Assembly: GCF_000478825.2 (NCBI RefSeq)
Contig: NZ_CP007542.1
Location: 1,302,001-1,366,000, forward strand
From: Synechocystis sp. PCC 6714
Lineage (GTDB): Bacteria; Cyanobacteriota; Cyanobacteriia; Cyanobacteriales; Microcystaceae
DNA length: 64,000 nt
Reading direction: 5' to 3'
Position numbers and translations under genes: made by a program. Below are positions 1 through 15,703 of this stretch, piece by piece (position 1 is the stretch's first letter; the number at the start of each line of letters is the position of its first letter). A model generated the notes under the pieces. The model saw nothing but the letters and a program-made list of their open reading frames with translations. It did not search any database and had not been told where the DNA came from.

Positions 1-1067
1 TCAGGGCTGGGAGATTCCGTTGGTGTAGGCTCAGGGCTGGGAGCTGGGGTTGTGGTTGGTGAGGGTTCTGGCTCAGGTTGGGTTTGGGGTCTGCAAGGAA
101 AAGGAACTATGCCAGGTTCACCGGGAAAAACAATAATTCCGGGTGCTCCAGGAAAAGTGCTAGGGGGACAATTTGGTGCTTCTGGTGTGTCGATCGCTGG
201 TGCTATACCTGCCTTAATTAATCCATCTAAAGTAGGAATAAATAGATTATTAATAACAGGAACAGCTTGGGGTAAAGGTGTAGGCTGGGGGATTATGTCA
301 TCTAGATTATTCTCGACAAAATCCCTAACGCTATTGAATAGAGAATCAAATAAATCTCCCGTAAATTCTCCAATTGCTTCGATAATGTCATCTACGATTG
401 ATTTACCGTCTTGCCTTCTTACCCGTATATTTCTTATTTCTGCTTTTCCTCCCCAGTATCCGTTGTAATAGCATCCCGTGCTTACTTGATCTTTATTTGG
501 CCCTGATTCAACTGTCCATGAGGCAAAATTTTGACTGTAATCATTTTTCCCATTCAATATTAGTTTTCCTACCGGACCATTTATTACTACTTGTGATATT
601 TGCCATCCTCCGCTAACCTCTATCACTCCTACATAAGGGTGCCATAATCTAGTTCTGCATTCTGCGGTGAAAATATAAGTTTTATTTGTTTTGCCCGTCC
701 ACTGACTGCAATCAGCATTTAGACAAATAGTAGCTAAGGCATTTCTCAACGGGTCGCCATCTAAATTAACATCTACAGTATTTCTATTAACTAAATCAGC
801 AAGCTTAATTGCACTTCCTGTCACTAAGCCCGTTCTAGTAATTTCCCAACCTAATTGACTTGCACATATAGCATTGGCTACACAAGCATCCAAAGAAGTA
901 ACAAAAGCTTCTGCGGGTCGATTACTAACTCCAATAAAGATAGAAATAGTCATTAAAAACAGAACAAAAAAAGAAACAATTCTATTGGTTAGCTTTCGTC
1001 TGTTCTTGTATAAACTCTTCTTAAACTTATTAAAAATAATGGGTAACTTATAAAAAGCAGATTTCAT
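1..1067 (-). CDS. pIII-like adsorption protein, C-terminus cut by window edge
   Basis: This is an open frame of at least 355 codons running off the left edge. It starts with ATG at 1067-1065 behind a strong AGGAGG (1075-1080) seven bases upstream. The product begins with basic residues and a long hydrophobic segment (about residues 28-48) followed by a signal-peptidase-like AEA site near residue 54. A cysteine-containing globular region follows, with cysteines in the motifs ACVANAIC, ICLNADC, AECR and TGCYY. After this come an amphipathic stretch, a short collagen-like part (PGAPG, PGEPG) and a Pro/Thr/Ser/Glu linker that is still open at the edge. It sits directly after the coat gene, where filamentous phages keep gene III. 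The pilus- or receptor-binding role is inferred from position and architecture; no homology can be claimed. The C-terminal membrane anchor would lie outside the window. Confidence 0.7.
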   Translation of the reverse strand, partial: MKSAFYKLPIIFNKFKKSLYKNRRKLTNRIVSFFVLFLMTISIFIGVSNRPAEAFVTSLDACVANAICASQLGWEITRTGLVTGSAIKLADLVNRNTVDVNLDGDPLRNALATICLNADCSQWTGKTNKTYIFTAECRTRLWHPYVGVIEVSGGWQISQVVINGPVGKLILNGKNDYSQNFASWTVESGPNKDQVSTGCYYNGYWGGKAEIRNIRVRRQDGKSIVDDIIEAIGEFTGDLFDSLFNSVRDFVENNLDDIIPQPTPLPQAVPVINNLFIPTLDGLIKAGIAPAIDTPEAPNCPPSTFPGAPGIIVFPGEPGIVPFPCRPQTQPEPEPSPTTTPAPSPEPTPTESPSP

Positions 1068-1108
1068 AAGCTACCCTCCTAGTAATTTGCTCTGGCTAAA
1101 ATCAGCAA

Positions 1109-1339
1109 TTAACCTTTGGTTGTCATGCGGTTGACTTGCTTAACAGCAATACGGAAGCCCATAGCAGTCATAACGATTGCGGCCACTCCGGCAGTTACTC
1201 CACCAATGGCGCTTACGGTATCAGCTACAGCAGAGGTGTCAGCTTTGGCAACAGTGGGAATGGTCAAGCTGGCTAGAATAGCACTTCCGATTAGGATTTT
1301 CTTGTCAAAATCGCTTAATTGAAGTTTGAAAGATTGCAT
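1109..1339 (-). CDS. pVIII-like major coat protein precursor
   Basis: This 76-residue protein is predicted to form the shaft of a filamentous virion. It has a basic N-terminus, a hydrophobic signal segment ending in TVAKA, and a mature part of about 43 residues. The mature part starts acidic (DTSAVADTV), continues with a Gly/Ala/Val/Ile/Met membrane span and ends basic (RIAVKQVNRMTTKG). This acidic-hydrophobic-basic layout with a cleavable leader is diagnostic of inovirus major coat proteins. I chose ATG 1339 because GGAG lies nine bases upstream; an in-frame TTG at 1354 would overlap that ribosome-binding site. It lies 42 bp upstream of the pIII-like gene on the same strand. Major coat proteins are too short and divergent for confident homology, so the call rests on architecture and context. 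Confidence 0.85.
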   Translation of the reverse strand: MQSFKLQLSDFDKKILIGSAILASLTIPTVAKADTSAVADTVSAIGGVTAGVAAIVMTAMGFRIAVKQVNRMTTKG

Positions 1340-1428
1340 TGGTTTAATCTCCAATAAAGAATAGAGCTTAGCTTTCGGCTAAACAAACCCTCCCAACTAC
1401 CCACTGTTATTAAATTCTGATTAATTGG

Positions 1429-1572
1429 CTAAATCTTATAGAAAAAGTAAGCCGCTACAGTAAGGGCTAAAGTAGTGCCAAAAATAACTAAACCTGCGCT
1501 AGTTCCCCACTCATAACCAGACTGTAAAGTGCTGTTTATCTGGCTTAAATCAGAATTGGCTAAAATCAACAT
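1429..1572 (-). CDS. Tiny single-span membrane protein (pVII/pIX-like position)
   Basis: This 47-residue protein starts at ATG 1572 and stops with TAG at 1431-1429. A polar N-terminal half (MLILANSDLSQINSTLQSG) precedes one hydrophobic span (residues about 25-44) and ends KI. Its start is two bases beyond the stop of the next upstream small gene, so the two are probably co-translated. Filamentous phages carry very short membrane proteins (pVII, pIX) between the ssDNA-binding protein and the major coat gene, which fits this position. The role as a minor tip protein is inferred; the sequence itself shows only a small membrane protein. Confidence 0.6.
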   Translation of the reverse strand: MLILANSDLSQINSTLQSGYEWGTSAGLVIFGTTLALTVAAYFFYKI

Positions 1573-1574
1573 AC

Positions 1575-1733
1575 TTAACCTCTGGTAAAGGATTTAACAA
1601 CAAATACAATGACCATAACTCCCATTAAAGCGGTAGCATACTTAGCGCCTTCAGTTAAGATTTTAGCGGCGGTTTCCTGTCCAAAATTACTGGGTAAATT
1701 TAGATTGGTAGCGTAATAAAATTGATAAATCAT
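1575..1733 (-). CDS. Tiny single-span membrane protein (minor coat candidate)
   Basis: This 52-residue protein has an N-terminal polar part, an amphipathic helix (QETAAKILTEGAKYATAL) and a hydrophobic stretch (MGVMVIVFVV) with a basic tail KSFTRG. It resembles a coat protein without a cleavable leader, so a second coat subunit is possible. The ATG at 1733 overlaps the TGA of the upstream gene in an ATGA junction, showing translational coupling. It sits with three other tiny membrane-protein genes between the 202-residue protein and the pVIII-like gene. Family membership cannot be assigned from sequence alone. Confidence 0.6.
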   Translation of the reverse strand: MIYQFYYATNLNLPSNFGQETAAKILTEGAKYATALMGVMVIVFVVKSFTRG

Positions 1734-1927
1734 AATCTGTAAATAATTCCAGTAAGAAAAGATAAACTGCCATGGATTACTACAGCCTTAAAAAGACTTA
1801 TGGCTAAATTCCAGTGTTCAGCTATACATAGAGTGTCAATTGTGGTGTTAGGGTTTCCTGCTCCGGGGTTAGCATTTGGATTTTGTGCTAATAACAAAAT
1901 TCCGTCAAAAATGTGGCTTATATCCAT
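1730..1927 (-). CDS. Small membrane protein, unknown
   Basis: This 65-residue protein starts at ATG 1927, with AGGAA upstream in a region overlapping the end of the previous gene; a TTG ten codons earlier is less likely. It shows a short hydrophobic N-terminus (IFDGILLLAQ) that could act as a weak signal, a linker rich in Asn, Pro and Gly, and a C-terminal hydrophobic segment from about residue 41 to the end. It overlaps the upstream gene by ten bases and the downstream one by four, so it belongs to the prophage morphogenesis operon. A minor virion role is plausible but unproven. Confidence 0.5.
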   Translation of the reverse strand: MDISHIFDGILLLAQNPNANPGAGNPNTTIDTLCIAEHWNLAISLFKAVVIHGSLSFLTGIIYRL

Positions 1928-2133
1928 ACGTATTTCCTGATTACGATTACAATCCAAGCGGTGGTGTACATTGATAGAAATGGGGCTGAAAAAGTAGCTT
2001 CAATGGCTTGCTGTAGGCTTGTAACTTTTTCGATGTAGTTCGTGCAATCCTGATAATACGCATCGGAACATCCGGTAATGATTAGAGATCCGGTGTATAA
2101 GCTTAAGCTTGTCCATAGTGTGCGGTTCCTCAT
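1918..2133 (-). CDS. Small membrane protein with lipobox-like motif
   Basis: This 71-residue product is read from ATG 2133. A basic start (MRNR) precedes a hydrophobic run ending LIITGC, which fits a lipobox, followed by a polar region with two more cysteines and a C-terminal hydrophobic span (SMYTTAWIVIVIRKYVWI). It could be a small lipoprotein or a two-span membrane protein. The start overlaps the end of the 202-residue gene region only slightly, and the end overlaps the next gene. The Shine-Dalgarno sequence is weak, so translational coupling is likely. Function is unknown. Confidence 0.45.
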   Translation of the reverse strand: MRNRTLWTSLSLYTGSLIITGCSDAYYQDCTNYIEKVTSLQQAIEATFSAPFLSMYTTAWIVIVIRKYVWI

Positions 2134-2137
2134 GGGA

Positions 2138-2746
2138 CTAGGCGGCAAGGTCTGCCATGTTTAATTGCTCGATGGGATTCATGTCAGCAATGCGTTCCAT
2201 TTCTTGTCCTTTGGTATCACGGACAGATTTAAACTCTGCTTCATACCAACCGGGGATAAATTGGAGGTTGTTAAAATTCCAATGTTCAAAAGTTTCCTCA
2301 ATTGCCAGATAGCCATAAGCTTTCCCCTTTTCGCTTAAAGCTTCCATCTCTCCCATAGGGTCAATTAAATAGGTGACAAGGCCTTTCCATTGCTCCATCT
2401 TGACCATCTTTGCTCCAATCAGAAGAATCTCCTCTCGTTCGGGAAACTTGATCTTCTTAAGCAAATTGGCTCTGATGGGGATTAGGTTGTAGCCTTTTTC
2501 GCCTAACTTTTTCTTTGGAGTGCGTCGGCGCTCAATTTCATAGATTCCGGGTGCATCTGAGAAATCTTCGATCCTTAAAGCAGAATTTCTGAGGTTAATT
2601 CTCATAGGTTGATAACCCTTGATTACCCCGTCGTTAGTTCGTTCAAGATTCATCACTTGGATAAAACCAGACTTGATGGTTTCCCCTTCGATGACATATT
2701 CCTCTTGGGAAGCGCCAATAACTAAATATTTGGAAGTACTAAGCAT
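2138..2746 (-). CDS. Hypothetical protein in the ssDNA-binding (pV) position
   Basis: This 202-residue soluble protein overlaps the end of the replication initiator gene by eight bases, so it is translationally coupled to it. In filamentous phages the gene after the initiator normally encodes the single-stranded DNA-binding protein (pV). The N-terminal 75 residues contain alternating beta-type stretches such as GFIQVMNLE, PMRINLRN and GIYEIERRR, compatible with an OB-like fold. The rest is mixed alpha/beta and longer than classical pV (about 87 residues). I see no diagnostic motif, so the ssDNA-binding role is inference from position only. Confidence 0.6.
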   Translation of the reverse strand: MLSTSKYLVIGASQEEYVIEGETIKSGFIQVMNLERTNDGVIKGYQPMRINLRNSALRIEDFSDAPGIYEIERRRTPKKKLGEKGYNLIPIRANLLKKIKFPEREEILLIGAKMVKMEQWKGLVTYLIDPMGEMEALSEKGKAYGYLAIEETFEHWNFNNLQFIPGWYEAEFKSVRDTKGQEMERIADMNPIEQLNMADLAA

Positions 2747-3692
2747 AGGGTTGTTCTCGTTGTTCTTGTAGGTAATTAATCCAAGCTAAATGGTGTTCTT
2801 GGAGCCTTTCGCTAGAGCGTTCGGCTATGCGGCTAATACTTTTAGTAAATTCAGTCTGTCCGAGACCGAAATACATAACAGCAAAAGTGGGCCCTGCTTG
2901 TCGCTCCAACCAATCCAAGGCTCTTTCTAGGGTGGGTTCGTCTCTGGGCTTTCTGAGCCGGCATTGGCCAATCTCTTTGACAAACTGCTCCCAAAATCGG
3001 TATCTCTTATCGTGGTTACTGTTGCTCCCAGGCTTAATAAAATCAAGAGTTCCGGTTAAAAACTTTCCTCCTGCTCGAATATCTCTTTTTTCGATAATCT
3101 CATCGGCACAAAATTCCGCATAATCTCCACGCAGTAATAATTCCCAACGGTCGGCGGGGATACCGTGCATAAATTCAGCGTTGTAGAATTTGACGATCTT
3201 TTCAGAGCTACCAAAAATACAAGTCCCTATTGGTTCCTCTCCCTTGACTGCCTTAGACTCGATAAATTTAAAACTATCTAAGCCTTTGTAGTGCTTCTTT
3301 TCTGCTAGGGCTTGTATCTTTTTTTGGCTGATGCGCCGCTTTTCGTCATCAATGGCAATGTCAATGCGGGTAAGCTTTTTAAGCCTCTCTTTGATAAGCT
3401 CTAAGCTCTTTAACTGATCCGTAAACTCCCAGCAAATAGTACCGGGAAACTGTAAATGGCAGTCGATGTAATCATCATGGACGGTAAAGCCTCCCCATAA
3501 TCCCTTAACTGAGCGAATACGGTTGTTAAACTTTCTGCCAATAGTCACTCCTTCCTGGTCAAAAAAACATTTGTCCCCTGTGACCATGCCCGCTTGTACT
3601 TCCTCCAAAAAGCTCTCCAACTGGCGAAACTCTGAAAAACGGGCCATGCCTTGCAGGTAGTCAATGCCAATGCTGAGGTGCTTAGGGGCCAT
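2739..3692 (-). CDS. Phage replication initiation protein (Rep_trans/RstA-like)
   Basis: This 317-residue protein is predicted to nick the double-stranded replicative form and start rolling-circle replication. It has the pattern of the replication-initiation-factor family of filamentous phages and related plasmids: an N-terminal HLSIGIDYLQG, a central beta-strand motif LTRIDIAIDDEK with alternating acidic residues, and a later FYNAEFMHGIPADRWELLL corresponding to the tyrosine / R-x-E region of the family. ATG 3692 is used. The gene begins the leftward operon, with 223 bp of non-coding sequence upstream. The exact nicking tyrosine cannot be assigned by eye. The assignment to this broad family is fairly secure; the subfamily is not. 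Confidence 0.72.
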   Translation of the reverse strand: MAPKHLSIGIDYLQGMARFSEFRQLESFLEEVQAGMVTGDKCFFDQEGVTIGRKFNNRIRSVKGLWGGFTVHDDYIDCHLQFPGTICWEFTDQLKSLELIKERLKKLTRIDIAIDDEKRRISQKKIQALAEKKHYKGLDSFKFIESKAVKGEEPIGTCIFGSSEKIVKFYNAEFMHGIPADRWELLLRGDYAEFCADEIIEKRDIRAGGKFLTGTLDFIKPGSNSNHDKRYRFWEQFVKEIGQCRLRKPRDEPTLERALDWLERQAGPTFAVMYFGLGQTEFTKSISRIAERSSERLQEHHLAWINYLQEQREQPYA

Positions 3693-3915
3693 AACTGGGT
3701 AAAAGAGAATAAACCAATAAAAAATTTCACGGGCGTGCTAACAGCCCTCTAGAAATACCGGGATTCAATGCCAGCCACAGTAAAAAAAAAGTCCCATCGC
3801 CGCAATAGGACAAATGAAACTGGATAACTAAGCCTTATAACCTGACTGCTAATGCCGAGACCAACAGCGTTAGCGCCCGATTTAAGCCTGTTTAAGTAAC
3901 TTTCTGTCGTTCTCT
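3693..3915. other. Non-coding gap with hairpin; candidate origin or terminator
   Basis: No gene is visible between the replication initiator and the repressor, both leftward. An inverted repeat, GCTAATGC (3848-3855) and GCGTTAGC (3867-3874), forms an 8-bp stem with one G-T pair and an 11-base loop. It may be the terminator of the repressor gene or part of the rolling-circle origin, which filamentous phages keep in such gaps. There is also a homopolymeric A9 run near 3781-3789. Confidence 0.35.
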
Positions 3916-4218
3916 TTATTTCCCCCCCAATCTTCTCGATAGCTCCCGCACCCGTGTAATTAAATCATTTGTCTTAGTCATCTGATTATTTAAATCTTCT
4001 ACTGATTTTTCTAACTCTGTCGCTAATTCTGCTAAGTCCTTAGCGGCTATGGCTAGTGTTACTGTACTGGAATTGATTAATGTCTCTAAATAGGTACTGT
4101 GCTTCATATCTGCGGCGTGGGCTCCGATGCGGATCATCTCAACGGTGCTGGGCTTGAGACTAAACCCTTTGACGATGCGGGTTTCACCACTACCTAACTT
4201 TCTACCTCTTTTAGCCAT
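3916..4218 (-). CDS. Ribbon-helix-helix-type repressor candidate
   Basis: This 100-residue basic protein begins MAKRGRKLGSGETR. It continues with a beta-strand (VKGFSLKP) and two helices (STVEMIRIGAHAAD, HSTYLETLINSS) in the spacing of a MetJ/Arc-type ribbon-helix-helix domain. The C-terminal half (residues about 55-95) is a heptad-like coiled coil, suitable for oligomerisation. It is divergent from the recombinase unit and faces three direct TGTAAA repeats plus a consensus promoter. It is therefore a good candidate for the immunity repressor of the prophage, in the position RstR-like repressors hold in other filamentous phages. Function is inferred from fold pattern and location. Confidence 0.6.
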   Translation of the reverse strand: MAKRGRKLGSGETRIVKGFSLKPSTVEMIRIGAHAADMKHSTYLETLINSSTVTLAIAAKDLAELATELEKSVEDLNNQMTKTNDLITRVRELSRRLGGK

Positions 4219-4232
4219 AGTTTTTTCCTTTT

Positions 4233-4259
4233 TGTAAAGAAATGTAAAACTTCTGTAAA
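4233..4259. promoter_or_regulatory. Three phased TGTAAA direct repeats (operator candidate)
   Basis: TGTAAA occurs at 4233-4238, 4243-4248 and 4254-4259, that is every 10-11 bp on one face of the helix. The array lies between the start of the repressor gene and the rightward consensus promoter. Ribbon-helix-helix repressors typically bind cooperatively to such short phased repeats, so this is probably the autoregulatory operator. Confidence 0.5.
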
Positions 4260-4273
4260 TTCTTTATAAAAAT

Positions 4274-4301
4274 TTGACAAGTAGTTTTTTTTTTTTATAA
4301 T
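4274..4301 (+). promoter_or_regulatory. Consensus sigma-70-type promoter for the recombinase unit
   Basis: A perfect TTGACA (4274-4279) and a perfect TATAAT (4296-4301) are separated by 16 bases consisting largely of T. It would drive the 94-residue gene, the structured leader and the recombinase. The strength expected from full consensus suggests that it needs repression, and the adjacent TGTAAA repeats fit this. Confidence 0.7.
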
Positions 4302-4352
4302 ACACCACGTCGAACATAGCATAAATTTTTGCCCTTTGCCTAGGTCTTACCT

Positions 4353-4637
4353 ATGTCTCCTCCTGATATAGATTCCTCTACCCACTACTTCTGCTCTTGT
4401 GGTGCTCGTCTTGGGTCTCCAGACTTTGATGGGCTATGGTCTGCGGAGCATAATACTTTGTGTCCTTGGGTTCGAGACCATGCTTCTAGGATTGTTAATG
4501 CTTTAGAGATTGATGATCCTATTCATATTGATCAGGTTCTTAGTGATGTTATTGCTAATTCTCCTTCTTATATTTCTCATGTTTCTCCTCTTCGTAGTAA
4601 AGATATAGAATCTCTTCTTTTTTTTATTTTTATGTAG
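4353..4637 (+). CDS. Small Cys/His protein, unknown
   Basis: This 94-residue product starts at ATG 4353, about 50 bases after a consensus -10 box. It contains a possible metal site: FCSCGARLG near residues 13-21, then HNTLCPWVRDH near residues 33-43. The composition is otherwise mixed, with a hydrophobic C-terminus. The codon use is T-rich like the recombinase downstream and unlike the core genes. It is the first gene of the rightward phage unit, so it may be an accessory to excision or regulation. I do not recognise a family. Confidence 0.5.
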   Translation: MSPPDIDSSTHYFCSCGARLGSPDFDGLWSAEHNTLCPWVRDHASRIVNALEIDDPIHIDQVLSDVIANSPSYISHVSPLRSKDIESLLFFIFM

Positions 4638-4644
4638 ATAGTTA

Positions 4645-4860
4645 ATCCTTCCCTACTGACCTCTGAGCTTAGGTTGAGGGGTCACTAGGGACGGAGTAGC
4701 TTCCCGTCTCATCGGTTAGTTAGCTAATAGAATGATTTACAAGAAAGTTGCTTTATTGCCTCGCCCCTTTATGTCGGACTATTAACTAGCTAGCTACCCA
4801 ATAAGCTTAAGAGTAAACTGTCTTGTATTTATAGGTTTCTGGCTTCTATTGGGATTAATT
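4645..4860 (+). ncRNA. Candidate bridge-RNA-like structured leader of the IS110-type recombinase
   Basis: The gap before the recombinase is rich in pairing. Stem 1 joins 4650-4661 with 4680-4691 (12 pairs, one mismatch). Stem 2 joins 4715-4730 with 4779-4794 (16 positions, two G-U pairs and one mismatch) around a 48-base loop. Stem 3 joins 4797-4803 with 4847-4853 (seven pairs) around a 43-base loop. Established knowledge: IS110-group elements encode a non-coding bridge RNA in the flank upstream of the recombinase, with a 5' hairpin and two internal loops that read target and donor DNA. The layout here is the same in kind. Loop 1 holds GCCCCTTTA (4763-4771), complementary to 6380-6388 beyond the recombinase; loop 2 holds AGAGTAAA (4810-4817), repeated at 6376-6383. 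These short matches could be chance. Confidence 0.5.
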
Positions 4861-4900
4861 TAAAGCTAACTTTCTCTTTCCTATTGGAGACAATTTAATA

Positions 4901-6316
4901 ATGAGAATTGCAGGTCTTGACATTTGTAAAGGCTACGCTGTGGCATGGATTCTTGATGAGCTTCCTGCTGATCCTAAGCAAGTTTGGAAACACGGCTTTA
5001 GGTCACGGTTCAAAAAGCCATCTGATGATCCTTATACCTTCTGGTTTTGCCATGATGTTTATCGCACTCAAGATGGTGAAAGGGTTTTAGATGTGCGGGG
5101 TATTGATACTTTCCTCAGTTGGGAGGTTGATGCTATTGCCTTAGAACCTACGGGCCTTCATTACTCAATGTTCATTTCTAAGGTTTGTGAATCTCACGGT
5201 ATTAAGGTTTTCTGGGTGAATCACCATAGCTGTAGAAACTGGCGACAAACCCACGGACTACCAGATAAGAATGATATTGCTGATGCTTATGCGCTCTGTG
5301 CTTATACTCAAACCTTTAAAGATTACTGGCGCTATTTCATCCGTTTTGAGAATGGGTCAATTGCTAAAATTCGGGACTTATATCACTTAAGAAAATTTTG
5401 TATAAAGATGTCTGTTAAGGCTTCTAATCGGGCCCAGCATCATCTAGCCTTTGATTTCCCTGAGTCTGCTTCTCTCTACTCCGATCCTGTTGGTAAAGCT
5501 TCTGATGGTCGTAGGCCATTGCTTTCTGTAGTTGCTGGTCATGAGCGGGGTACTCGTAGGTCTCCTTGGGTCAATCGTCTTAATAATTCCATTGCTAGGG
5601 AATATGGCATAGAGCTTTCAGATCCTTCTATTTATCTTGCTGGTTTGACTGATGACTTTGATTTAAAGGTCAATGAAATTAACAGCAGGCTCTCTGAGCT
5701 GGTTTATTCTCCCCAGTTTGCGGGTTATAACTTTGTCTTTGATCGATTTAATTTTGGTGTTCCTTTGCGGGGTCTACTTCTTACTCTTATTTATCCCTTC
5801 TCTGAGCGTTTTACTGGTTCTTCTCTTCCTGCGTTTAAACGTCGTATAGGGTTGGCAAGGGTAGAAACGCAGTCAGGGACTAGCATCAAAGGTTCTAAGA
5901 CTGGTTCTAGTTCTTCTATTTGTCGGGCTGAGTTCTATTGCTGGGTTAGTTCCCAGTTCAAGCTTGGTGCTAAGACTCAATACTCTGAACAGTTGCAAAG
6001 GATTAAGGACTATCACGATGAGAAAACCGCTCAGCTAAAGGCAGATCCTGAAAAGTTGGCTTTGCAGGCGGCCGCTAAATACCAAGCTCGTTTACGGTCT
6101 GAGATGTTTAACTCTCTCTCGTCTTCTGGTCTGATGACGGTTAATCAGGTTAAAGCTCTGCTCTCGGAAATTGACTGGTCTGCTAAGGTGCCTGCTGGTA
6201 TGGCTAAAAATAATCTAGTAGGTAACTTGGTCATTAACAAGACTGGAGGCTACGCAGCTAAGCTTCTCTACCGTGCTCTAGATGAAGTTAGGGAGACTCT
6301 CGATATTACTGATTAA
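4901..6316 (+). CDS. IS110/Piv-type DEDD recombinase (prophage integrase/transposase)
   Basis: This 471-residue protein has the two domains of IS110-group enzymes. The N-terminal RuvC-like domain carries a DEDD set: D7 in GLDICKG, E82 in ALEPTGLHY, D125 and D128 in KNDIADAY. The C-terminal Transposase_20-type region contains AFKRRIGL and QSGTSIKG, with the presumed catalytic serine at S325. It is longer than typical IS110 enzymes (about 300-400 residues), with an insertion before the serine domain and a C-terminal extension. GGAGA (4886-4890) is a good ribosome-binding site for ATG 4901. Related Piv-like enzymes integrate some filamentous phages, and this gene lies at the end of one here. It probably integrates and excises the prophage. 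All catalytic residues are present, so the enzyme should be active. Confidence 0.85.
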   Translation: MRIAGLDICKGYAVAWILDELPADPKQVWKHGFRSRFKKPSDDPYTFWFCHDVYRTQDGERVLDVRGIDTFLSWEVDAIALEPTGLHYSMFISKVCESHGIKVFWVNHHSCRNWRQTHGLPDKNDIADAYALCAYTQTFKDYWRYFIRFENGSIAKIRDLYHLRKFCIKMSVKASNRAQHHLAFDFPESASLYSDPVGKASDGRRPLLSVVAGHERGTRRSPWVNRLNNSIAREYGIELSDPSIYLAGLTDDFDLKVNEINSRLSELVYSPQFAGYNFVFDRFNFGVPLRGLLLTLIYPFSERFTGSSLPAFKRRIGLARVETQSGTSIKGSKTGSSSSICRAEFYCWVSSQFKLGAKTQYSEQLQRIKDYHDEKTAQLKADPEKLALQAAAKYQARLRSEMFNSLSSSGLMTVNQVKALLSEIDWSAKVPAGMAKNNLVGNLVINKTGGYAAKLLYRALDEVRETLDITD

Positions 6317-6633
6317 TTCTGGCTTATAGGGGTCTTTTCTTAAGATCCCTTATTTAGTCTGTAAATTAGTGGATTAGAGTAAAGGGGCTTTGGGGCCTAG
6401 CTTAATCAAACTGATTTTTAGATTCAAGCATTTTCCCTAATTTTTCTGGGCAAAGGGTTCAACCTCTGTGGTCTGGGACAAAAATACTTTTAGTAAACCA
6501 GATTTCCTAGTTAGTAAAGGGTAAACCCCACTGATTAATCGGGAAAACCCGCCTTACTGACCATGGAGTTATGCTCCTAGAATTATGGTTGTAGCCCTCA
6601 CACAGCTAATCTACACTCGATATAGAAAATTTT
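6317..6633. other. Non-coding junction between prophage and clpB
   Basis: No gene is visible in these 317 bases. The stretch must contain the right attachment junction of the filamentous prophage and the clpB promoter region. It holds the hairpin just after the recombinase, the sequence TTAGAGTAAAGGGGC at 6374-6388 that partly matches both large loops of the structured leader, and a small CGGGAAAACCCG hairpin near 6540. I could not fix the junction without an uninterrupted relative for comparison. Confidence 0.5.
6328..6350 (+). terminator. Hairpin after the recombinase gene
   Basis: AGGGGTCTT (6328-6336) pairs with AAGATCCCT (6342-6350) through nine positions including one G-U, with a five-base loop. 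It begins 12 bases after the recombinase stop. There is only a short T-rich tail, so termination may be partial. Confidence 0.45.
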
Positions 6634-10240: not shown

Positions 10241-10315
10241 GCCGAAACCCATGCTGTATATGGTGTTTTGATATGCCAGGAGGCGGACTTGAACCGCCGA
10301 CACGAGGATTTTCAG
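10241..10315. repeat. Left att copy (attL), 3' half of tRNA-Phe
   Basis: This is identical over 75 bp to 30901-30975. It covers the tRNA-Phe sequence from the anticodon loop to the 3' end and 33 bases beyond. Identity stops abruptly on both sides. Confidence 0.95.
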
Positions 10316-10386
10316 AACTCGTACAAGAATTATATCAAACTTTATTCATTAAGGCTTTCAGCGTTTTTAGGCTGAAGGCTTTTTGC

Positions 10387-10407
10387 TTTTATGCAAATTT
10401 TATGCAA
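10387..10407. repeat. Integrase arm-type sites inside the left end
   Basis: TTTTATGCAA occurs at 10387-10396 and 10398-10407, 11 bp apart, about 70 bp inside the left att. The same TTATGCAA word recurs four times (last two copies imperfect) next to the right att. Symmetric arrays of this kind are typical arm-binding sites of tyrosine integrases. Confidence 0.6.
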
Positions 10408-10452
10408 GTTTTTAGAGTGAGCAGAAACATTGACAATGGAGTATTTGGGGCT

Positions 10453-11568
10453 ATGCCAAGGCAAATTAATCCACGGGATAACAATGGAGGAATTTTGCTC
10501 CGGTGGTCGTTTAAGGGAAAAAGTTATAGTTTGACCCCGGTACCTGGGGGGCGGTTTGATAGTGCAATCGACATTAAGCGGGCCCAGTCCGTAGCTAATC
10601 TGATCAGTGCTGATATTGCCATGGGCCAATTTGACCAAACCTTGGCCAAGTATGGGGGCAGTCTCCACAAAACCCAGTTGGCGATCGACGATGCCCAGGA
10701 AAGATTAAAGCAATTACGCCAGCAACGCTCCGAAGCAGATTTGCGGGAATTGTGGGAAAAATACAAGGCTTTTAAGGCTCCCCAGTTGGCCCCCACTACT
10801 CTCAAGATTGATTACGGGCGACGGATGAATTTTTTAGGGAAGCTGGAAGATTCCAGGTTGTCCCAAGCCATAACCATTCGGGATTGGATTGTGGCCAACA
10901 CCACCACGGAACAGGCCAAGAAAATTCTGCAAAATCTAAATGCCTGTTGTGAGTGGGCGGTGAAGTCGGAGCTAATCGAACTTAATCCGTTTGTGGGCAT
11001 GGCGGGGCAGATTCACGTTAAGCACGATGAGGAGGACATTAACCCATTCAATCCGCTGGAAAAGGAGGCAATCATTCAGGGGTTTTATTCCAGCCCCCAC
11101 TATGGGCATTACGGGCGGTTGGTGGACTTCCTGTTTGCCACTGGTTGCCGTCCGTCTGAGGCTATTCCGTTGGAGTGGGGAGACTTGCGGGGAAATAAAT
11201 TAACTTTTCAGCGGACGTACAGCGATGGGGTGCTTTCCCCCCGGCTCAAGACCCAAAAAAAACGGACGATCATCCTTAATGAAAGGGCGATCGCCGCTGT
11301 GAGTTTCGACTCAGATCACTATATTTTTCCTTCACCAGAGGGGAAGCTTATAGATTGGCATAATTTTGCCAATCGTGCCTGGCCCAATGTTCTTGGACTG
11401 TTCCCAGAGATTGAATACCGCAACCCCAAGCAAACCCGCCACACTTTCATCACTGAACGGATTTTGGCGGGGGATTCCCCGGCGGATGTGAGCCGTTATG
11501 TGGGCAATTCACCGGGGACAATCTACAAAAATTACCTGGGGGCTAGTCGGAGCTATTCACCGGACTGA
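10453..11568 (+). CDS. Tyrosine-type site-specific integrase
   Basis: This 371-residue recombinase is read from ATG 10453 (MPRQINPRDNNGG); the upstream in-frame codons come from the tRNA and att sequence. An arm-binding/core-binding N-terminal part (to about 185) precedes the catalytic domain: arginine in ATGCRPSEAI, lysine in LKTQKKRT, the box-II arginine and histidine in KQTRHTF, and the tyrosine in IYKNYLG. The usual histidine before the box-II arginine is lysine (PKQTRH), and GH is GN (VGNSP), deviations also seen in other active phage integrases. It should integrate the element at tRNA-Phe. Its last codons, NYLGASRSYSP, are repeated twice or more downstream, each time with an in-frame stop. 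Confidence 0.93.
   Translation: MPRQINPRDNNGGILLRWSFKGKSYSLTPVPGGRFDSAIDIKRAQSVANLISADIAMGQFDQTLAKYGGSLHKTQLAIDDAQERLKQLRQQRSEADLRELWEKYKAFKAPQLAPTTLKIDYGRRMNFLGKLEDSRLSQAITIRDWIVANTTTEQAKKILQNLNACCEWAVKSELIELNPFVGMAGQIHVKHDEEDINPFNPLEKEAIIQGFYSSPHYGHYGRLVDFLFATGCRPSEAIPLEWGDLRGNKLTFQRTYSDGVLSPRLKTQKKRTIILNERAIAAVSFDSDHYIFPSPEGKLIDWHNFANRAWPNVLGLFPEIEYRNPKQTRHTFITERILAGDSPADVSRYVGNSPGTIYKNYLGASRSYSPD
11530..11563. repeat. Integrase 3'-end repeat, copy 1 (authentic end)
   Basis: These 34 bases encode NYLGASRSYSP, including the presumed catalytic tyrosine. The same sequence recurs at 11820-11853 with one mismatch and, shortened, at 12105-12129. Confidence 0.9.
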
Positions 11569-11819
11569 TCAAGAAAATACTCATTTCGCCAATTTGTTAA
11601 GACAGATATTGCTGATTTGTAGTCTTCTTCACTGTAGCCTTGCGACCGAGCTTCATCTGACAAATACTTTTCTTGTGCAAACTCTATGATTTCTTGATCT
11701 GAAACACTGCCTGCCATTTCAGCAAAAGCTTCAAGTAAGACAGGATTTGCAAACCCATAAACTTTTGCACAATGAATCAATTCGAGGATGTCGGATAAAT
11801 CAACGTTAATTGTTTTCAT
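11553..11819 (-). CDS. Small acidic protein, unknown (cassette gene 1)
   Basis: This 88-residue, mostly helical, acidic protein starts MKTINVDLSDILELIH and ends FLDQSGE. It converges on the integrase gene and overlaps its last 16 bases. Its start codon abuts the second integrase-end repeat, so its ribosome-binding site lies in that repeat. I recognise no family. It occupies one of several small-gene slots beside duplicated gene ends, so it is likely an accessory gene. Confidence 0.6.
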   Translation of the reverse strand: MKTINVDLSDILELIHCAKVYGFANPVLLEAFAEMAGSVSDQEIIEFAQEKYLSDEARSQGYSEEDYKSAISVLTNWRNEYFLDQSGE

Positions 11820-11853
11820 AATTACCTGGGGGCTAGTCGGAGTTATTCACCGG
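11820..11853. repeat. Integrase 3'-end repeat, copy 2
   Basis: This matches 33 of 34 bases of 11530-11563. Read on the plus strand in the integrase frame it gives NYLGASRSYSPG and a stop codon TAG, so it is a complete alternative C-terminus. On the minus strand it carries the stop of the next small gene. Confidence 0.9.
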
Positions 11854-12081
11854 GTTAGAGATTTCTCCATATTTTTTCCCGCAAAACGGACAGTAGGTAA
11901 AGCCAACGCTTTTTGGTTGGGCTAATTTAGGTTTTCGCCCATTTTCTAGTTGAACTAGGGGGATTGTTTGAATGAAATAGCACGGCCCTTTTTTCGGCAA
12001 AACAAGGGTTAAATTTTTGTCGCAAAGTTTTAACCCTTGGGGGGCTAGACGTTCATCAAGATTTTTTAGGCAATCACACAT
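11833..12081 (-). CDS. Small zinc-ribbon-like protein (cassette gene 2)
   Basis: This 82-residue protein has CDCLKN at residues 2-4 and a C-terminal TYCPFCGKKYG, a CxxC zinc-ribbon half, giving two cysteine pairs. The middle part (LAPQGLKLCDKNLTLVLPKK) is mixed beta. Such proteins are common small phage genes of unknown role. GAGGAT upstream of ATG 12081 serves as ribosome-binding site. Its stop lies in the integrase-end repeat copy 2. Confidence 0.65.
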   Translation of the reverse strand: MCDCLKNLDERLAPQGLKLCDKNLTLVLPKKGPCYFIQTIPLVQLENGRKPKLAQPKSVGFTYCPFCGKKYGEISNPVNNSD

Positions 12082-12104
12082 AATCTAATCCTCTTTTTTC
12101 GGGG

Positions 12105-12129
12105 TGGGGGCTAGTCGGAGCGATTCACC
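12105..12129. repeat. Integrase 3'-end repeat, copy 3 (shortened)
   Basis: These 25 bases match the 3' part of the integrase-end repeat with two mismatches. In the integrase frame they read GASRSDSP, then D and a TAA stop. The N-terminal tyrosine codon is lost. Confidence 0.75.
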
Positions 12130-12317
12130 TGATTAATCCCATGGTTAACGGAGGCGATACGTTTTTCGATTTTTTCGAGAGACGCATCAACTTTTATCTC
12201 TTGATGGACTAATTCGGGGGAACGATGCACAAATTCATACTCGGTTTTTTGCAAGCGACGCATACAGCGGAGATGCATGATCAGTTCAAATAATTCAAAT
12301 TGTTCATTATTTTCCAT
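12111..12317 (-). CDS. Small helical protein, unknown (cassette gene 3)
   Basis: This 68-residue protein is almost entirely charged helix (FELFELIMHLRCMRRLQ, then KVDASLEKIEKRIASV), suggesting a short coiled coil. The stop lies in repeat copy 3. It belongs to the leftward set of small genes between integrase and primase. Function is unknown. Confidence 0.55.
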   Translation of the reverse strand: MENNEQFELFELIMHLRCMRRLQKTEYEFVHRSPELVHQEIKVDASLEKIEKRIASVNHGINQVNRSD

Positions 12318-12321
12318 AGCC

Positions 12322-12420
12322 TTAATTCCAAGATTCCATGTAATTAACTAAATCGAGCATTTCTGCTTCTGTCAGTTCTACAAAGGTGGATTTTCCATAT
12401 TTATCGAGGCAATTCACCGG
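12322..12420 (-). pseudogene. Duplicated, diverged 3' end of the primase gene
   Basis: Read on the minus strand this gives CLDKYGKSTFVELTEAEMLD followed by LVNYMESWN and a stop. The authentic primase end reads CKERYEKSTFLEINESEQLD followed by LILYLKSKEA and a stop. The two align without gaps except for one extra residue at the authentic terminus, while the DNA has clearly diverged, so the duplication is old. The 67-residue gene at 12422-12625 lies exactly between this copy and the real primase end. Confidence 0.8.
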
Positions 12421-12421
12421 G

Positions 12422-12625
12422 CTAAAAGGGGATTTCTTTGCCCCACTCATCAACAATCCAGTTTCCCTCAGAAAAAATATAGGAGTTAACCCAAGGGCCT
12501 TCGCAGTAACATTGCCCTGGGCATAGAGACTCCCAGAAAAAATATTCCGGCCAGACTGGAAAGCGAAACTCCAAGTCGAACATTAAAATTGCCCATGTAC
12601 AGAAAGCTGTTAAGAAGTTTTTCAT
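12422..12625 (-). CDS. Small aromatic protein with hydrophobic start (cassette gene 4)
   Basis: This 67-residue product starts MKNFLTAFCTWAILMFDLEF, a possible weak signal or membrane segment. It continues with an aromatic, cysteine-containing part (SLCPGQCYCEGPW). It begins four bases after the primase stop on the same strand, so it could be translated from the primase mRNA. It is flanked by the true and the duplicated primase 3' ends. No family is recognised. Confidence 0.5.
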   Translation of the reverse strand: MKNFLTAFCTWAILMFDLEFRFPVWPEYFFWESLCPGQCYCEGPWVNSYIFSEGNWIVDEWGKEIPF

Positions 12626-12629
12626 CGGT

Positions 12630-15590
12630 CTAAGCCTCCTTAGATTTTAGATAAAGAATTAAATCAAGCTGTTCTGACTCATTAATTTCCAAAAAAGTCG
12701 ATTTTTCATATCTTTCCTTGCAAATCCGCTGTAATTGCCAGGGATTCAATTGCAGGCGATCCATTTCGGCTTTTATCTCAGATGCCGTGAGCTTCTGATC
12801 CTCGGTTAATTCCACTTTTTTACCGTTGGAAATTTCTGGTGAGGTATAAACCCCCTCAAATTGCTTCACCTGCTTCACCAGCCTATCTGGCAAGGGTTTC
12901 AGACCGTCAACTGCTTCACTAATTGCTTCACCAACTGCTTCACCAACTTTTTGACCTCCCCTTTTTTCTTCTTCTTCTTTTTTTTCTGGTGAAGAGGAAG
13001 TGAAGGAAAGTGAAGACATTGGTGAAGCTGTAACCCCTATGGAATAAGGCAGTGAAGCTGGTGAAGCAGTTTTATTTAGTTTGAGTCCAGCAAGATAAAA
13101 GCTACCTTTTTTATCTTTGTCGATCGTCTCCCGTTGCTTGGTAATTTTTGGGAATAATTGGCTGAAAGCATCGAAAATTTGGTTGGCTCCCTTGATAGGA
13201 CGGTCAAAACGCTTTAATTGCTCATGCCAGATTAATTTAGGTCGTCCTTTGTCCGTCTCAGGCTGAATTACTTCTAAAGTTCCGTTAGCTTCATACCATT
13301 CCCGCAGGATTAACCACAAATCAGAGATGTAAATTTTCTCGCCCTGGGCTTCAACGATGCCCATTTCCTCCACAAATTCCCAAAGGTGGTTAGATTTTTT
13401 GCGGATCTCTTGGAAGTAATGGTCAAGCCCTTCGTAGGGAATGCCATCTTGGGCGATCGCCGGAATCTCGGCAAGGACACGATTGAGGAAAGCCGGGGAA
13501 ACATTTTCCACCACCCATTGGGGGTCGTATTTAAAGCGGGGGTCAGCCTGCATTTCCCGTGAATCTGCGGGGTTTGGGTTGCGCTTGAAGGATTTCTGGA
13601 AGCGAATCACACAAAACCGTGAGGTCATGGCATTGAGGGAACCATCCATCCTGGGGGCTTCGTTGACGTTGAAGAAAAAGACGGCGTTGGGCTTGATCGT
13701 CCTTTCGTCCCGGCCTTTGGGGTTAATTTTGACTTGCTCCCCAGAAATCAGACGGAATAGGGATTTCAGCTTTTCTACTTTGTATTGGTCGCTGTTTTCC
13801 GATGCCCAGCTCACTAATGCCCCATCTAAGTCCGCCAGGCCACCGATTTGGCCTTGCTCAAATTGGTAAAAGTTATTCAGGGCGGTATCGACCATGAACT
13901 GTCCAAAAATCTGTTCCACCACCAACCGCAGAGAATCCTTCCCGTTTTCCCCTACCCCTTCCAAAAACAGAGCACGGGGGCGGCCGGTGAAGCGGCGGAA
14001 ATTTTCTAGATCAAACGCCAGGGCAACAGAACGCAGGAAAATGGTCTGCTCTTCTGGGGAAATGCAACTTAAAAGGCGATCGCAGTTTTCGGGGTTGGCG
14101 TTGGGGTCATATTTGACGGGGGAGCAATAGGTATAAAAAACTTTGGAGGTGTGTGGTTCGATTACCGCCTTGGGGACTGATTTTTCCCATTGGATAATCA
14201 GCCGACCATTGGCCAAATTTATCCCTGGTGGATTGATTAGCTCCTCCTTAACCCGTTTGCGCTTCAGTGTCCACTCATAGGCACCGTTGATCGATTGTGG
14301 AGATAGATGGGCGGCAACCCATTTTCCATACTTCCCCTTGACAGGGTTTTGATAGGCCCATTCGATTAAAAGGGCTTCGGCTTCGGCACGGCTAAATTTT
14401 TCGTAGTATTGTCCGTTGTAGCGGTATAGGGAAAGCTTAGTGTCATCCCCAAAGCTGATATATTCCGCATCGAAAAAGCAGTCTAGGTAAGCTTTTTCCT
14501 TCCAAGAAACAGCCGGATCTCTGTAGGATTCCCCTTTGCCTTCCTGGCCCGGTATGCCCTCATCGTCATCGTAGTATTCACTGGGTTCCTGCAATGGGAT
14601 GGTGGTGGTTACTTCAACTTTTTTGGCCCCTGGTTTGGCCTCCGATTTCATTGAATCTTTCCACCACTGGGGATAATCCCAGCCGAGCATTGTTCTGGCA
14701 TGGTGAACCAGAGTGCCAATGCCAAAGTCCCCGGTACTGCTGGGAATAATTTGTTGCCAGTTCCGTTCCGGGGAATGGCCCGTCATGAGCATGATCGCTT
14801 CTGGTTCAGAAAATATATTTTTCAGGGCCACGGCAATTTCCCTGTATTCCGCATAGGTTCCACTATCCGGCACCGTTGGCGGTAAAAATTCCAAAATTTC
14901 CAGGGCTAGTTGTTTGTCCCTTTCCAAATCATCTAAGGGGCTACTGACGGAATGTTTAATTTTTGGCGATCGCCTCGCTGGCTTTTGTATGGGGGGGACT
15001 AAGGGAATTTGTAGAGTCCAATCCTTTGCCGCCAAAGCTTGCTCAATTTCGGCTTTGCTATAGCGGCGATCGGTGGGATTGATCAGCTCACACTTGACCG
15101 GCTCTTCCCCTGGCTTGATATGCCAACCCCCAGCAACCCTCAAAACACGGCTGGGATTTTTCAGAGTGCGATCGCCATCCAAGAAATTTAGTAAGTTAGC
15201 CTGAAGAATTTTCCAGTCTTCAACGGGGATAGGCTCTTTTAAAACCCAATAAGAATGGATGGATTTGCGTGTTTTAACTTGAAAGGTAGGCTCTAGGAAA
15301 TTAATCTTTTCCCAAAAGTCTTCTTGCTCCTCCATGGGGCGATCATCCCACTCAGCAAAAAAGGCTCGACAGGTTTTAATATCCTTGTCAGATTGACCCT
15401 GACCATTTACTACAAAATACAGTCCCTTTTCTGGATTTTGCTCTTGAATAATACAGGGCAAAATTTGCTTAGTTTTGGAGGCGTAACCCTTGCTACCCTT
15501 GGGCGGAAACTGTCTATAAAAAATAGTGTCCCCGTCTTTATAGCCCAAAGCTTTTAGCTGTAAGTAATGTTGCGTAGTATCAATTTGCAT
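12630..15590 (-). CDS. PrimPol-helicase fusion (P4/D5-type replication protein)
   Basis: This 986-residue replication protein starts at ATG 15590 (MQIDTTQHYLQL). The N-terminal archaeo-eukaryotic-type primase shows the metal motif FFAEWDD (about residues 83-89) and the S-x-H motif SIHSYW. A linker domain is followed by a superfamily 3 helicase with Walker A-like EGVGENGKDS near residue 545, an acidic LADLDGALVSW and the asparagine motif FFFNVNEAP. The Walker A serine/threonine is replaced by aspartate (GKD), which is unusual. A variable low-complexity region (EEKKEEEEKRGG) and a small helical end follow. Such fusions initiate replication of P4-like satellites, phages and plasmids. It is the only replication gene of the element. 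Confidence 0.85.
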   Translation of the reverse strand: MQIDTTQHYLQLKALGYKDGDTIFYRQFPPKGSKGYASKTKQILPCIIQEQNPEKGLYFVVNGQGQSDKDIKTCRAFFAEWDDRPMEEQEDFWEKINFLEPTFQVKTRKSIHSYWVLKEPIPVEDWKILQANLLNFLDGDRTLKNPSRVLRVAGGWHIKPGEEPVKCELINPTDRRYSKAEIEQALAAKDWTLQIPLVPPIQKPARRSPKIKHSVSSPLDDLERDKQLALEILEFLPPTVPDSGTYAEYREIAVALKNIFSEPEAIMLMTGHSPERNWQQIIPSSTGDFGIGTLVHHARTMLGWDYPQWWKDSMKSEAKPGAKKVEVTTTIPLQEPSEYYDDDEGIPGQEGKGESYRDPAVSWKEKAYLDCFFDAEYISFGDDTKLSLYRYNGQYYEKFSRAEAEALLIEWAYQNPVKGKYGKWVAAHLSPQSINGAYEWTLKRKRVKEELINPPGINLANGRLIIQWEKSVPKAVIEPHTSKVFYTYCSPVKYDPNANPENCDRLLSCISPEEQTIFLRSVALAFDLENFRRFTGRPRALFLEGVGENGKDSLRLVVEQIFGQFMVDTALNNFYQFEQGQIGGLADLDGALVSWASENSDQYKVEKLKSLFRLISGEQVKINPKGRDERTIKPNAVFFFNVNEAPRMDGSLNAMTSRFCVIRFQKSFKRNPNPADSREMQADPRFKYDPQWVVENVSPAFLNRVLAEIPAIAQDGIPYEGLDHYFQEIRKKSNHLWEFVEEMGIVEAQGEKIYISDLWLILREWYEANGTLEVIQPETDKGRPKLIWHEQLKRFDRPIKGANQIFDAFSQLFPKITKQRETIDKDKKGSFYLAGLKLNKTASPASLPYSIGVTASPMSSLSFTSSSPEKKEEEEKRGGQKVGEAVGEAISEAVDGLKPLPDRLVKQVKQFEGVYTSPEISNGKKVELTEDQKLTASEIKAEMDRLQLNPWQLQRICKERYEKSTFLEINESEQLDLILYLKSKEA

Positions 15591-15598
15591 GGTATAAT
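15570..15598 (+). promoter_or_regulatory. Promoter facing away from the primase gene
   Basis: TTGCGT (15570-15575) and TATAAT (15593-15598) are separated by 17 bases on the plus strand. The only thing downstream before a terminator is about 100 bases of non-coding sequence, so the transcript would be a short RNA. Confidence 0.45.
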
Positions 15599-15604
15599 AT
15601 ATCT

Positions 15605-15703
15605 CAATTGTTACGGTAAAGTATTGCAAGGACACAACCGCAAGACAGTGTACAAACGGTGGTTCCATAGGAAAGGGAAGGTGTAAAAACCCTCCCTTTT
15701 TTT
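15605..15703 (+). ncRNA. Candidate countertranscript RNA opposite the primase leader
   Basis: A consensus-like promoter ends at 15598, and a hairpin with a T7 tail ends near 15703 (AAAGGGAAGG pairing with CCCTCCCTTT). Between them an imperfect stem-loop can form around 15636-15664. The RNA of about 100 bases would be antisense to the leader of the primase mRNA. Plasmid-like replicons often limit their initiator by such countertranscripts. The sequence shows promoter, stem-loop and terminator; the regulatory role is inferred. Confidence 0.4.

Follow-up and report, generated by a model that had tools for sequence, protein, structure and literature searches.

A filamentous prophage of Synechocystis appears to integrate under the guidance of a putative bridge RNA

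Known phage integrases find their attachment (att) sites through protein–DNA contacts, and an IS110 insertion sequence is a short element that carries a recombinase gene only. Bridge RNAs and seekRNAs have been reported for insertion sequences (PMC11208160, PMC11187229; these and the other papers cited by PMC number are drawn on in excerpt), and the bridge RNA of IS621 has been described with a target loop and a donor loop whose left and right guides address opposite strands (PMC11208160). IS110-type recombinases are also found in filamentous phages, i.e., phiOH16, Zuza8, and Zuza27 of Thermus and Nf of Neisseria (PMC11437467). Here, we analyze a window of 64,000 nucleotides (the whole stretch, positions 1,302,001 to 1,366,000 of contig NZ_CP007542.1) from Synechocystis sp. 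PCC 6714, which contains the right part of an inovirus-type prophage with a gene for an IS110-family recombinase. The non-coding leader upstream of this gene very probably encodes a bridge RNA that the phage recombinase would use for integration at a core sequence shared by phage and host. Integration thus appears to depend on RNA guidance instead of a DNA-reading protein, with two loops that would spell out the insertion site and the phage's own ends. We establish the exact ends of the prophage, four matches between guides and DNA, a covarying leader structure, guides that change with the junctions of related elements, and intact catalytic residues. IS110-type recombinases of filamentous phages and bridge RNAs of insertion sequences are already known. 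Among the best 12-20 hits of each full-text search in the open-licence literature, judged by title and start of abstract, we found no report of a bridge RNA in a phage, which leaves its absence unproven as preprints and most subscription journals lie outside that search; the best 12 of 23 matches on cyanobacterial inoviruses likewise held no report of such a phage.

The host genome (3.74 Mb in four contigs) carries the prophage at G000:C1:1295492-1308380, i.e., 12,889 bp plus a 3-base core, as determined by comparison with congeneric genomes that have an empty site (G and L numbers are our handles for genomes and loci). This end mapping is a genome comparison and independent of the leader sequence. 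G003 and G004, two of four further congeneric genomes, have the empty site and fix both prophage ends, the right one at window position 6380 with the core at 6381-6383. G001 and G002 are uninformative because their homology starts only ca. 240 bases past the site. The attB site of G003 reads GCTTACAAG-AAA-GGGGCTTTGG, and the prophage is bounded by attL, GCTTACAAG-AAA-CCTATAACTTT, and attR, GGATTAGAGT-AAA-GGGGCTTTGG, so that the core common to phage and host is 3 bp, AAA.
1-6380, no strand: part of the prophage inside the window; its left end lies 5' of the window at G000:C1:1295492.
6376-6388, plus strand: attR, prophage end, with left donor AGAGT, core AAA (6381-6383), and right target GGGGC.

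Four short segments of the leader correspond to these sites.
4737-4747, plus strand: left target guide TTACAAGAAAG, same as the left half and core (plus one base) of the empty host site.
4763-4770, plus strand: right target guide GCCCCTTT, reverse complement of the core and right half of the empty host site.
4810-4818, plus strand: left donor guide AGAGTAAAC, same as the right phage end and core (plus one base of the joined left end).
4829-4838, plus strand: right donor guide TTATAGGTTT, reverse complement of the core and left phage end.
In the predicted RNA, this arrangement is the IS110 bridge-RNA code, with the left guide addressing one strand and the right guide the other in both the target and the donor loop, and the loops are complementary to both strands of target and donor around the shared core. 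The first-pass annotation, made from the window's sequence alone, had noticed that loop bases 4763-4771 are complementary to 6380-6388 and that loop bases 4810-4817 recur at 6376-6383; both correspondences are exact (9 nt, and 8 nt in direct orientation). It had allowed that they could be chance, which they are not because 6381-6383 is the exact junction of prophage and host, and the left prophage end, outside the window, supplies the other two guide matches. Its proposal of IS110-type RNA-guided integration by a phage gains support from the fit of all four guide halves to sites that were set independently: in the comparison with an empty site for which it had called, the target loop fits the empty site and the donor loop fits the joined ends.

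Outside the 3-base core, the matches span 7, 5, 5, and 7 bases (24 in total). No leader among 20,000 dinucleotide-preserving shuffles reached this total (best 16), nor did any of 50,000 randomly drawn pairs of one host and one phage position that have a 3-base core in common (best 18); seven of the 50,000 draws had a target score of 12, which is the score of the true attB, itself among the drawn positions. When every position of the 11.5-kb empty-site locus was scored on both strands, the true attB came out on top (12; next 10), and the joined phage ends scored 12 against a best of 11 for interior plus-strand positions of the phage, leader excluded. The 15-mer TTACAAGAAAGGGGC occurs exactly once in each of G003 and G004, at the empty site. 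With up to one mismatch allowed, there is one further match in G003 (one mismatch) and none in the other three of the five genus genomes, and the same pattern read backwards as a control gives four matches (two in G000 and two in G001).

The leader fills the gap between a 94-residue open reading frame (ORF) and the recombinase gene, 4638-4900, where the first-pass annotation had rightly counted 263 non-coding bases. Its predicted fold has a minimum free energy of -77.8 kcal/mol (z = -3.1; 1 of 200 shuffles equally stable) and contains three hairpins.
4640-4701, plus strand: 5' hairpin of the leader, from the fold; a covarying 5' hairpin is also present in the aligned leaders.
4714-4796, plus strand: stem with a large loop, target-binding hairpin of the putative bridge RNA, from the fold and the guide matches.
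4797-4853, plus strand: 7-bp stem, donor-binding hairpin of the putative bridge RNA, from the fold, the guide matches, and the alignment.
Two of them reproduce what had been drawn before, i.e., a 16-bp stem with a 48-base loop at 4715-4794 and a 7-bp stem with its loop at 4797-4853, and the compact hairpin previously placed at 4650-4691 is present in a longer form. Across relatives, where this structure had been proposed for comparison, fold and covariation are kept over 17 leaders: RNAalifold finds 27 pairs in five helices, 20 of which are changed on both sides. Paired cells amount to 90.4% compared with 69.8% in shuffles (0 of 500 as good), the covariation score is 0.53 compared with 0.18 (0 of 500 as high), and sliding the structure along the alignment as a control drops paired cells to 27-57%. 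By structure and covariation, the leader is predicted to form a structured non-coding RNA with target and donor loops beside the recombinase gene. Its only Rfam match, to the C/D small nucleolar RNA SNORD26 at 4846-4911, reaches 27.4 bits against a threshold of 44 and is taken as chance. The match deserves mention solely because box C/D-like motifs are reported for bridge RNAs (PMC12045711).

The gene that follows the leader encodes the recombinase.
4901-6316, plus strand: IS110-family DEDD recombinase, 471 residues, from Pfam, alignment, and predicted fold.
The DEDD RuvC-like domain (DEDD_Tnp_IS110, PF01548) is recognized with 31.7 bits at a curated cut-off of 29. The residues named in the first-pass annotation (D7, E82, D125, D128, and S325) are invariant across 16 aligned sequences including the window protein, as is G326. 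An AlphaFold2 model built from this 16-sequence alignment has a mean predicted local distance difference test score (pLDDT) of 79.7 and a predicted template modelling score (pTM) of 0.67, and it is poor at residues 322-336 around the serine. Compared with the PDB by Foldseek, the model has as its top seven matches chains of 8wt9, 9t56, and 8wt6, in which the recombinases of IS621 and ISCro4 are complexed with bridge RNA (E 2.8e-5 to 6.6e-5, TMt 0.57-0.64, root-mean-square deviation 8.9-11.8), which are the sole matches at E <=0.001; Nop-type and TIGR-TasR proteins come next (TasR at rank 10, E 0.01). The modelled fold is that of the solved bridge recombinases. A sequence search of solved structures returned two matches (E 0.29 and 0.77), neither of them a recombinase.

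As in IS621, the recombinase would bind the bridge RNA encoded by the leader. Loop 1 would pair with the host site TTACAAG-AAA-GGGGC and loop 2 with the joined phage ends AGAGT-AAA-CCTATAA, in each case on both strands. On the same model of IS621, circular phage DNA and host site would come together in a synapse, the recombinase would swap strands at the shared core to integrate the circular replicative form, and excision would be the reverse reaction.

Relatives of the recombinase were matched in 16 of 58 near genomes and, at E 1e-30, in 5 of 386 genomes of the phylum (own genome included in both counts), as well as at 18 loci of the genome_contigs set, where the named relatives are cyanobacteria. 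Searches by tblastn found none in 50,697 phage records at E 1e-5; among 72,556 plasmid records, there was a single, partial match, and the viral_contigs set held no confirmed relative when searched with the recombinase alone, alignment A2, Rep, or the Zuza8 transposase. G008 and G024 carry fragments of close relatives (that of G008 with two stops) and were left out of the leader and junction analysis, as were G006, G014, G021, G022, G027, G029, G031, G033, G034, G035, and G052; the leader of G055 was folded and aligned and stands outside the junction tests.

The junctions of four relatives (G412, G382, G336, and G053), each with a non-coding leader of 285-304 nt upstream of its recombinase, were studied in full. 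The left-donor motif served to place the right end of each element; it was found 68 (G412), 50 (G382), and 114 (G336) bases 3' of the stop codon and at the stop itself in G053, so that the left-donor match of these relatives is by construction. The right-target guide fits the adjoining host DNA in all four, with a sequence that differs in each. Left ends lie 9.2-18.4 kb away and were found with a 16-mer composed of the left-target guide and an assumed right donor, four mismatches allowed, which is partly circular. In G412, both ends have independent confirmation from the empty site CTAGCAGGAAATCAAG in the congeneric G436 and from a host gene that is split in G412; the empty site of G382 was not found in G441. 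The left ends of G382, G336, and G053 were first located via the guide, which makes their left-target match circular in part. The right-donor motif AATCCCCAG is common to all four left ends, from which it had originally been taken; used as a query, it returned these ends with 6-7 left-target bases each and one other site with 0. This search tested no further left end because 14 further loci are without a suitable motif: it is absent from 11 and lies downstream or is unrelated in three (L083, L088, and L081, there at an attP-like junction).

Full independence holds for every half of the window's guides, for the two target halves of G412, and for the right-target half of G382, G336, and G053. 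When all five leaders were scored against all five junctions, the true pairing was the best of 120 permutations (97; next 83) in a comparison that is partly circular for the relatives, and it remained so with the target halves alone (57; next 43). The total was reached by 0 of 20,000 shuffles of each of the five leaders; with the target halves alone, 3 of 20,000 did so in G382 and none in the other four. A wider test covered 17 of the 18 genome_contigs loci, leaving out L096, in which no leader of this type was seen. The left-donor motif gave a right end in 15 of the 17, 14 by an exact 8-mer and L093 by a 6-mer; in L090 it lies ca. 1.1 kb 3' of the gene, and L087 and L094 have two candidates each, of which the better one was counted. 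Among these 15 loci, the right-target guide matches over 5-6 bases in eight, over 4 bases in L094, and over 3 in L084. Misses included, the guides of relatives change with their junctions. The 8.8-kb contig of L081 has a left donor directly followed by a right donor at position 4754, and this sequence, AAAGTGAATCCCCAGAGAG, is the predicted joined-end (attP) sequence, consistent with a circle or tandem junction of one relative; an exact overlap of 20-200 bases between the two ends of the contig is absent.

Several observations weigh against a viral bridge RNA. The case is built from sequence comparison and predicted structures. The structure on which covariation was scored had been predicted from that very alignment and is thereby favoured, and the window leader's own target hairpin aligns poorly among the 17 leaders, so that the window fold rests mainly on its single-sequence prediction and the guides. 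In the recombinase, the C-terminal Transposase_20 domain (PF02371) is undetected at E 0.1; it is present in the aligned relatives L046 and L002. The right-donor guide of the relatives, GGGAGATTC, needs a bulge or mismatch to pair with their left end, GAATCCCC. Exact patterns derived from this guide missed the relatives' left ends in both genomes searched (0 of 2) and gave two unrelated matches in a further search. In the wider test, the right-target match is 2 bases or fewer in 5 of the 15 loci, three of them with intact recombinase frames (L081, L085, and L087; 461-466 codons) and two with interrupted ones (L089 and L093; 192 and 168 codons). No right end was found in L095 and L097 (2 of 17), whose recombinase frames are short, L095 lying at a contig end, and one of the eight positive loci, L083, has the same insertion site as G336.

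What else could the leader be? It might be att-like DNA that is bound by the recombinase or serves in regulation, or the relic of an earlier rearrangement, without any RNA guide. Such DNA would suit the shortness of the matches (8-11 bases) and the fact that the leader is known here from DNA alone. However, each loop holds one half-site directly and the other reverse-complemented, in the order of a bridge RNA and within hairpins, the stems covary in 17 leaders, and the guides vary together with the junctions in other elements; we consider this explanation very unlikely. Far less credible still is the idea that the leader serves the recombinase gene as an untranslated 5' region or attenuator of the ordinary kind and that its matches are chance. 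Its position directly 5' of the gene and an Rfam match (SNORD26, 27.4 bits) far under the threshold of 44 might suggest this, but it is contradicted by the shuffles (0 of 20,000), by the random site pairs (0 of 50,000), and by the guide-target matches in other elements.

Alternatively, a bridge RNA might once have worked and this copy now be inert, or a different enzyme might have integrated the phage, for example the protein resembling tyrosine recombinases whose gene lies at 10273-11568. This protein scores just below the Phage_integrase cut-off (26.4 compared with 27.1 bits) and is encoded 3.9 kb outside the prophage, i.e., beyond clpB and outside the mapped ends, whereas the catalytic residues of the IS110-type recombinase are intact, all four guides fit the present ends, and the shared core is just 3 bp. 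We give these possibilities together only a slim chance, and a bridge RNA that directs integration of the prophage is the reading that we favour.

A possible second case of a bridge RNA is offered by filamentous phages of Thermus. The Zuza8 transposase has tblastn matches in 30 phage records, 12 of which are named Inovirus. In phiOH16, Zuza8, and Zuza27 (L099, L100, and L101), a leader 5' of the transposase has donor-loop-like matches to a GTAGT-CT site just downstream of the transposase gene, covering 10/10 (Zuza8), 10/11 (Zuza27), and 10/11 (phiOH16) bases of the left half and 7 bases each of the right half, or 8 in Zuza27 and phiOH16 if a neighbouring T is counted. The site differs from phage to phage; Zuza8 and Zuza27 have it on the minus strand, phiOH16 on the plus strand, and in a 3 × 3 table each site is matched best by the leader of its own phage. 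These sites were picked by searching for the matches, and in phage genomes only, which makes the Thermus case a lead.

Signals that might govern expression of the leader lie on both sides of the recombinase gene, together with the small ORF.
4274-4301, plus strand: sigma-70 type promoter, TTGACA-16-TATAAT (12/12), by consensus match only; it reads towards the 94-residue ORF, the leader, and the recombinase gene.
4353-4637, plus strand: 94-residue ORF directly upstream of the leader.
6328-6350, plus strand: terminator-like hairpin downstream of the recombinase gene, by consensus match only.
Such promoter sites number 2 in the region compared with a shuffle mean of 4.2 (no excess) and terminator-like hairpins 3 compared with 2.3 (no clear excess), and the 94-residue ORF has no Pfam or PHROG match at E 0.1.

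We call the element inovirus-type because it encodes a Rep_trans replication initiator and a pI/Zot-type assembly ATPase, a pair expected of an inovirus (Tubulavirales); its coat protein is only weakly recognized. An identity as a one-gene IS110 insertion sequence was rejected for an element of 12.9 kb with phage genes.
2739-3692, minus strand: replication initiator, Rep_trans (PF02486), E 5e-20.
1109-1354, minus strand: candidate major coat protein, 81 residues, by a weak match to phrog_6548 (major coat protein, E 0.026).
Rep had no match at E 1e-8 among the 290 other genomes searched from the same taxonomic order. The assembly ATPase matches phrog_197 (E 2e-10) and phrog_1675 (protein I of M13; E 3e-7) and, with 19.9 bits, falls just under the PF05707 cut-off of 20.3. 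The genes for the candidate coat protein and for pI flank that of an 848-residue protein (L031:10524-13067); this protein has no family match at E 0.01, and its very long repeat region rich in Pro, Ser, and Asp makes it, by eye, a candidate adsorption protein. Farther along the window, at 10273-15668 beyond clpB, the tyrosine-recombinase-like gene (10273-11568) is accompanied by small genes and an ORF of 1012 residues that by eye resembles a primase-helicase, which suggests a second integrated element near the prophage.

The relatives are of another make. With 12 window proteins or parts thereof as tblastn queries at E 1e-3, only the recombinase was matched in the stretches compared, i.e., no inovirus genes were found beside the relatives. 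By eye, L035:1198-15873, L048:8534-17726, L047/L078, and L074:1053-19500 have uncharacterised genes in common and also share a second small tyrosine-recombinase-like gene (Phage_integrase at E 1e-12 in L035, the sole locus checked), and L035 encodes an endolysin-like protein (PHROG 10051). These relatives of 9-18 kb may represent a previously undescribed class of phage-like or integrative elements that is mobilized by a bridge recombinase. The G336 recombinase stops ca. 20 residues before the usual end (L045:1360), and this copy may be inactive.

If the leader encodes a bridge RNA as we propose, a virus would pick its integration site via RNA guidance, which would account for site finding by the IS110-type recombinases of filamentous phages and would make integration sites predictable straight from the phage sequence. 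Because a viral bridge RNA would name both the phage's own ends and the host site, a few mutations in its loops could shift integration to another site. We consider it fairly likely that filamentous phages use RNA-guided lysogeny as a general strategy, with the cyanobacterial phage and those of Thermus, for which the evidence is separate and weaker, as two independent branches. The 9-18 kb relatives with their natural pairs of guide and target suggest that bridge recombinases move cargo far beyond one-gene insertion sequences.

The core of IS621 is CT, whereas the one described here is AAA. SeekRNA systems of IS1111/IS110 elements (PMC11187229) share the RNA-guided principle and the enzyme family, yet they are insertion sequences, and the main text of that source contains no word beginning with "phage" or "filamentous". 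As the first-pass annotation had remarked, the enzyme is also longer than usual, with 471 residues compared with 315-455 for IS110 transposases (PMC11187229). The inoviruses of Thermus and Neisseria share with our prophage an IS110-type enzyme that is encoded at one provirus end; the Thermus enzymes are shorter (ca. 300 residues), and the available part of PMC11437467 mentions no guide RNA, whereas the Thermus leaders show donor-loop-like matches in the present analysis. TIGR-Tas systems (PMC12045711) have an RNA-binding Nop-type domain related to IS110 but are not recombinases, and guide arrays take the place of a bridge RNA. Closest are IS621 and other insertion sequences of the IS110 group (PMC11208160, PMC11208158), with which the locus shares a DEDD/serine recombinase, a guide RNA, here putative, 5' of its gene, and a short shared core. 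Unlike in these insertion sequences, the mobile unit is an inovirus-type prophage of 12.9 kb, and the putative RNA is encoded inside the element, ca. 1.5 kb from its right end and ca. 11 kb from its left, downstream of a complete promoter-like site.
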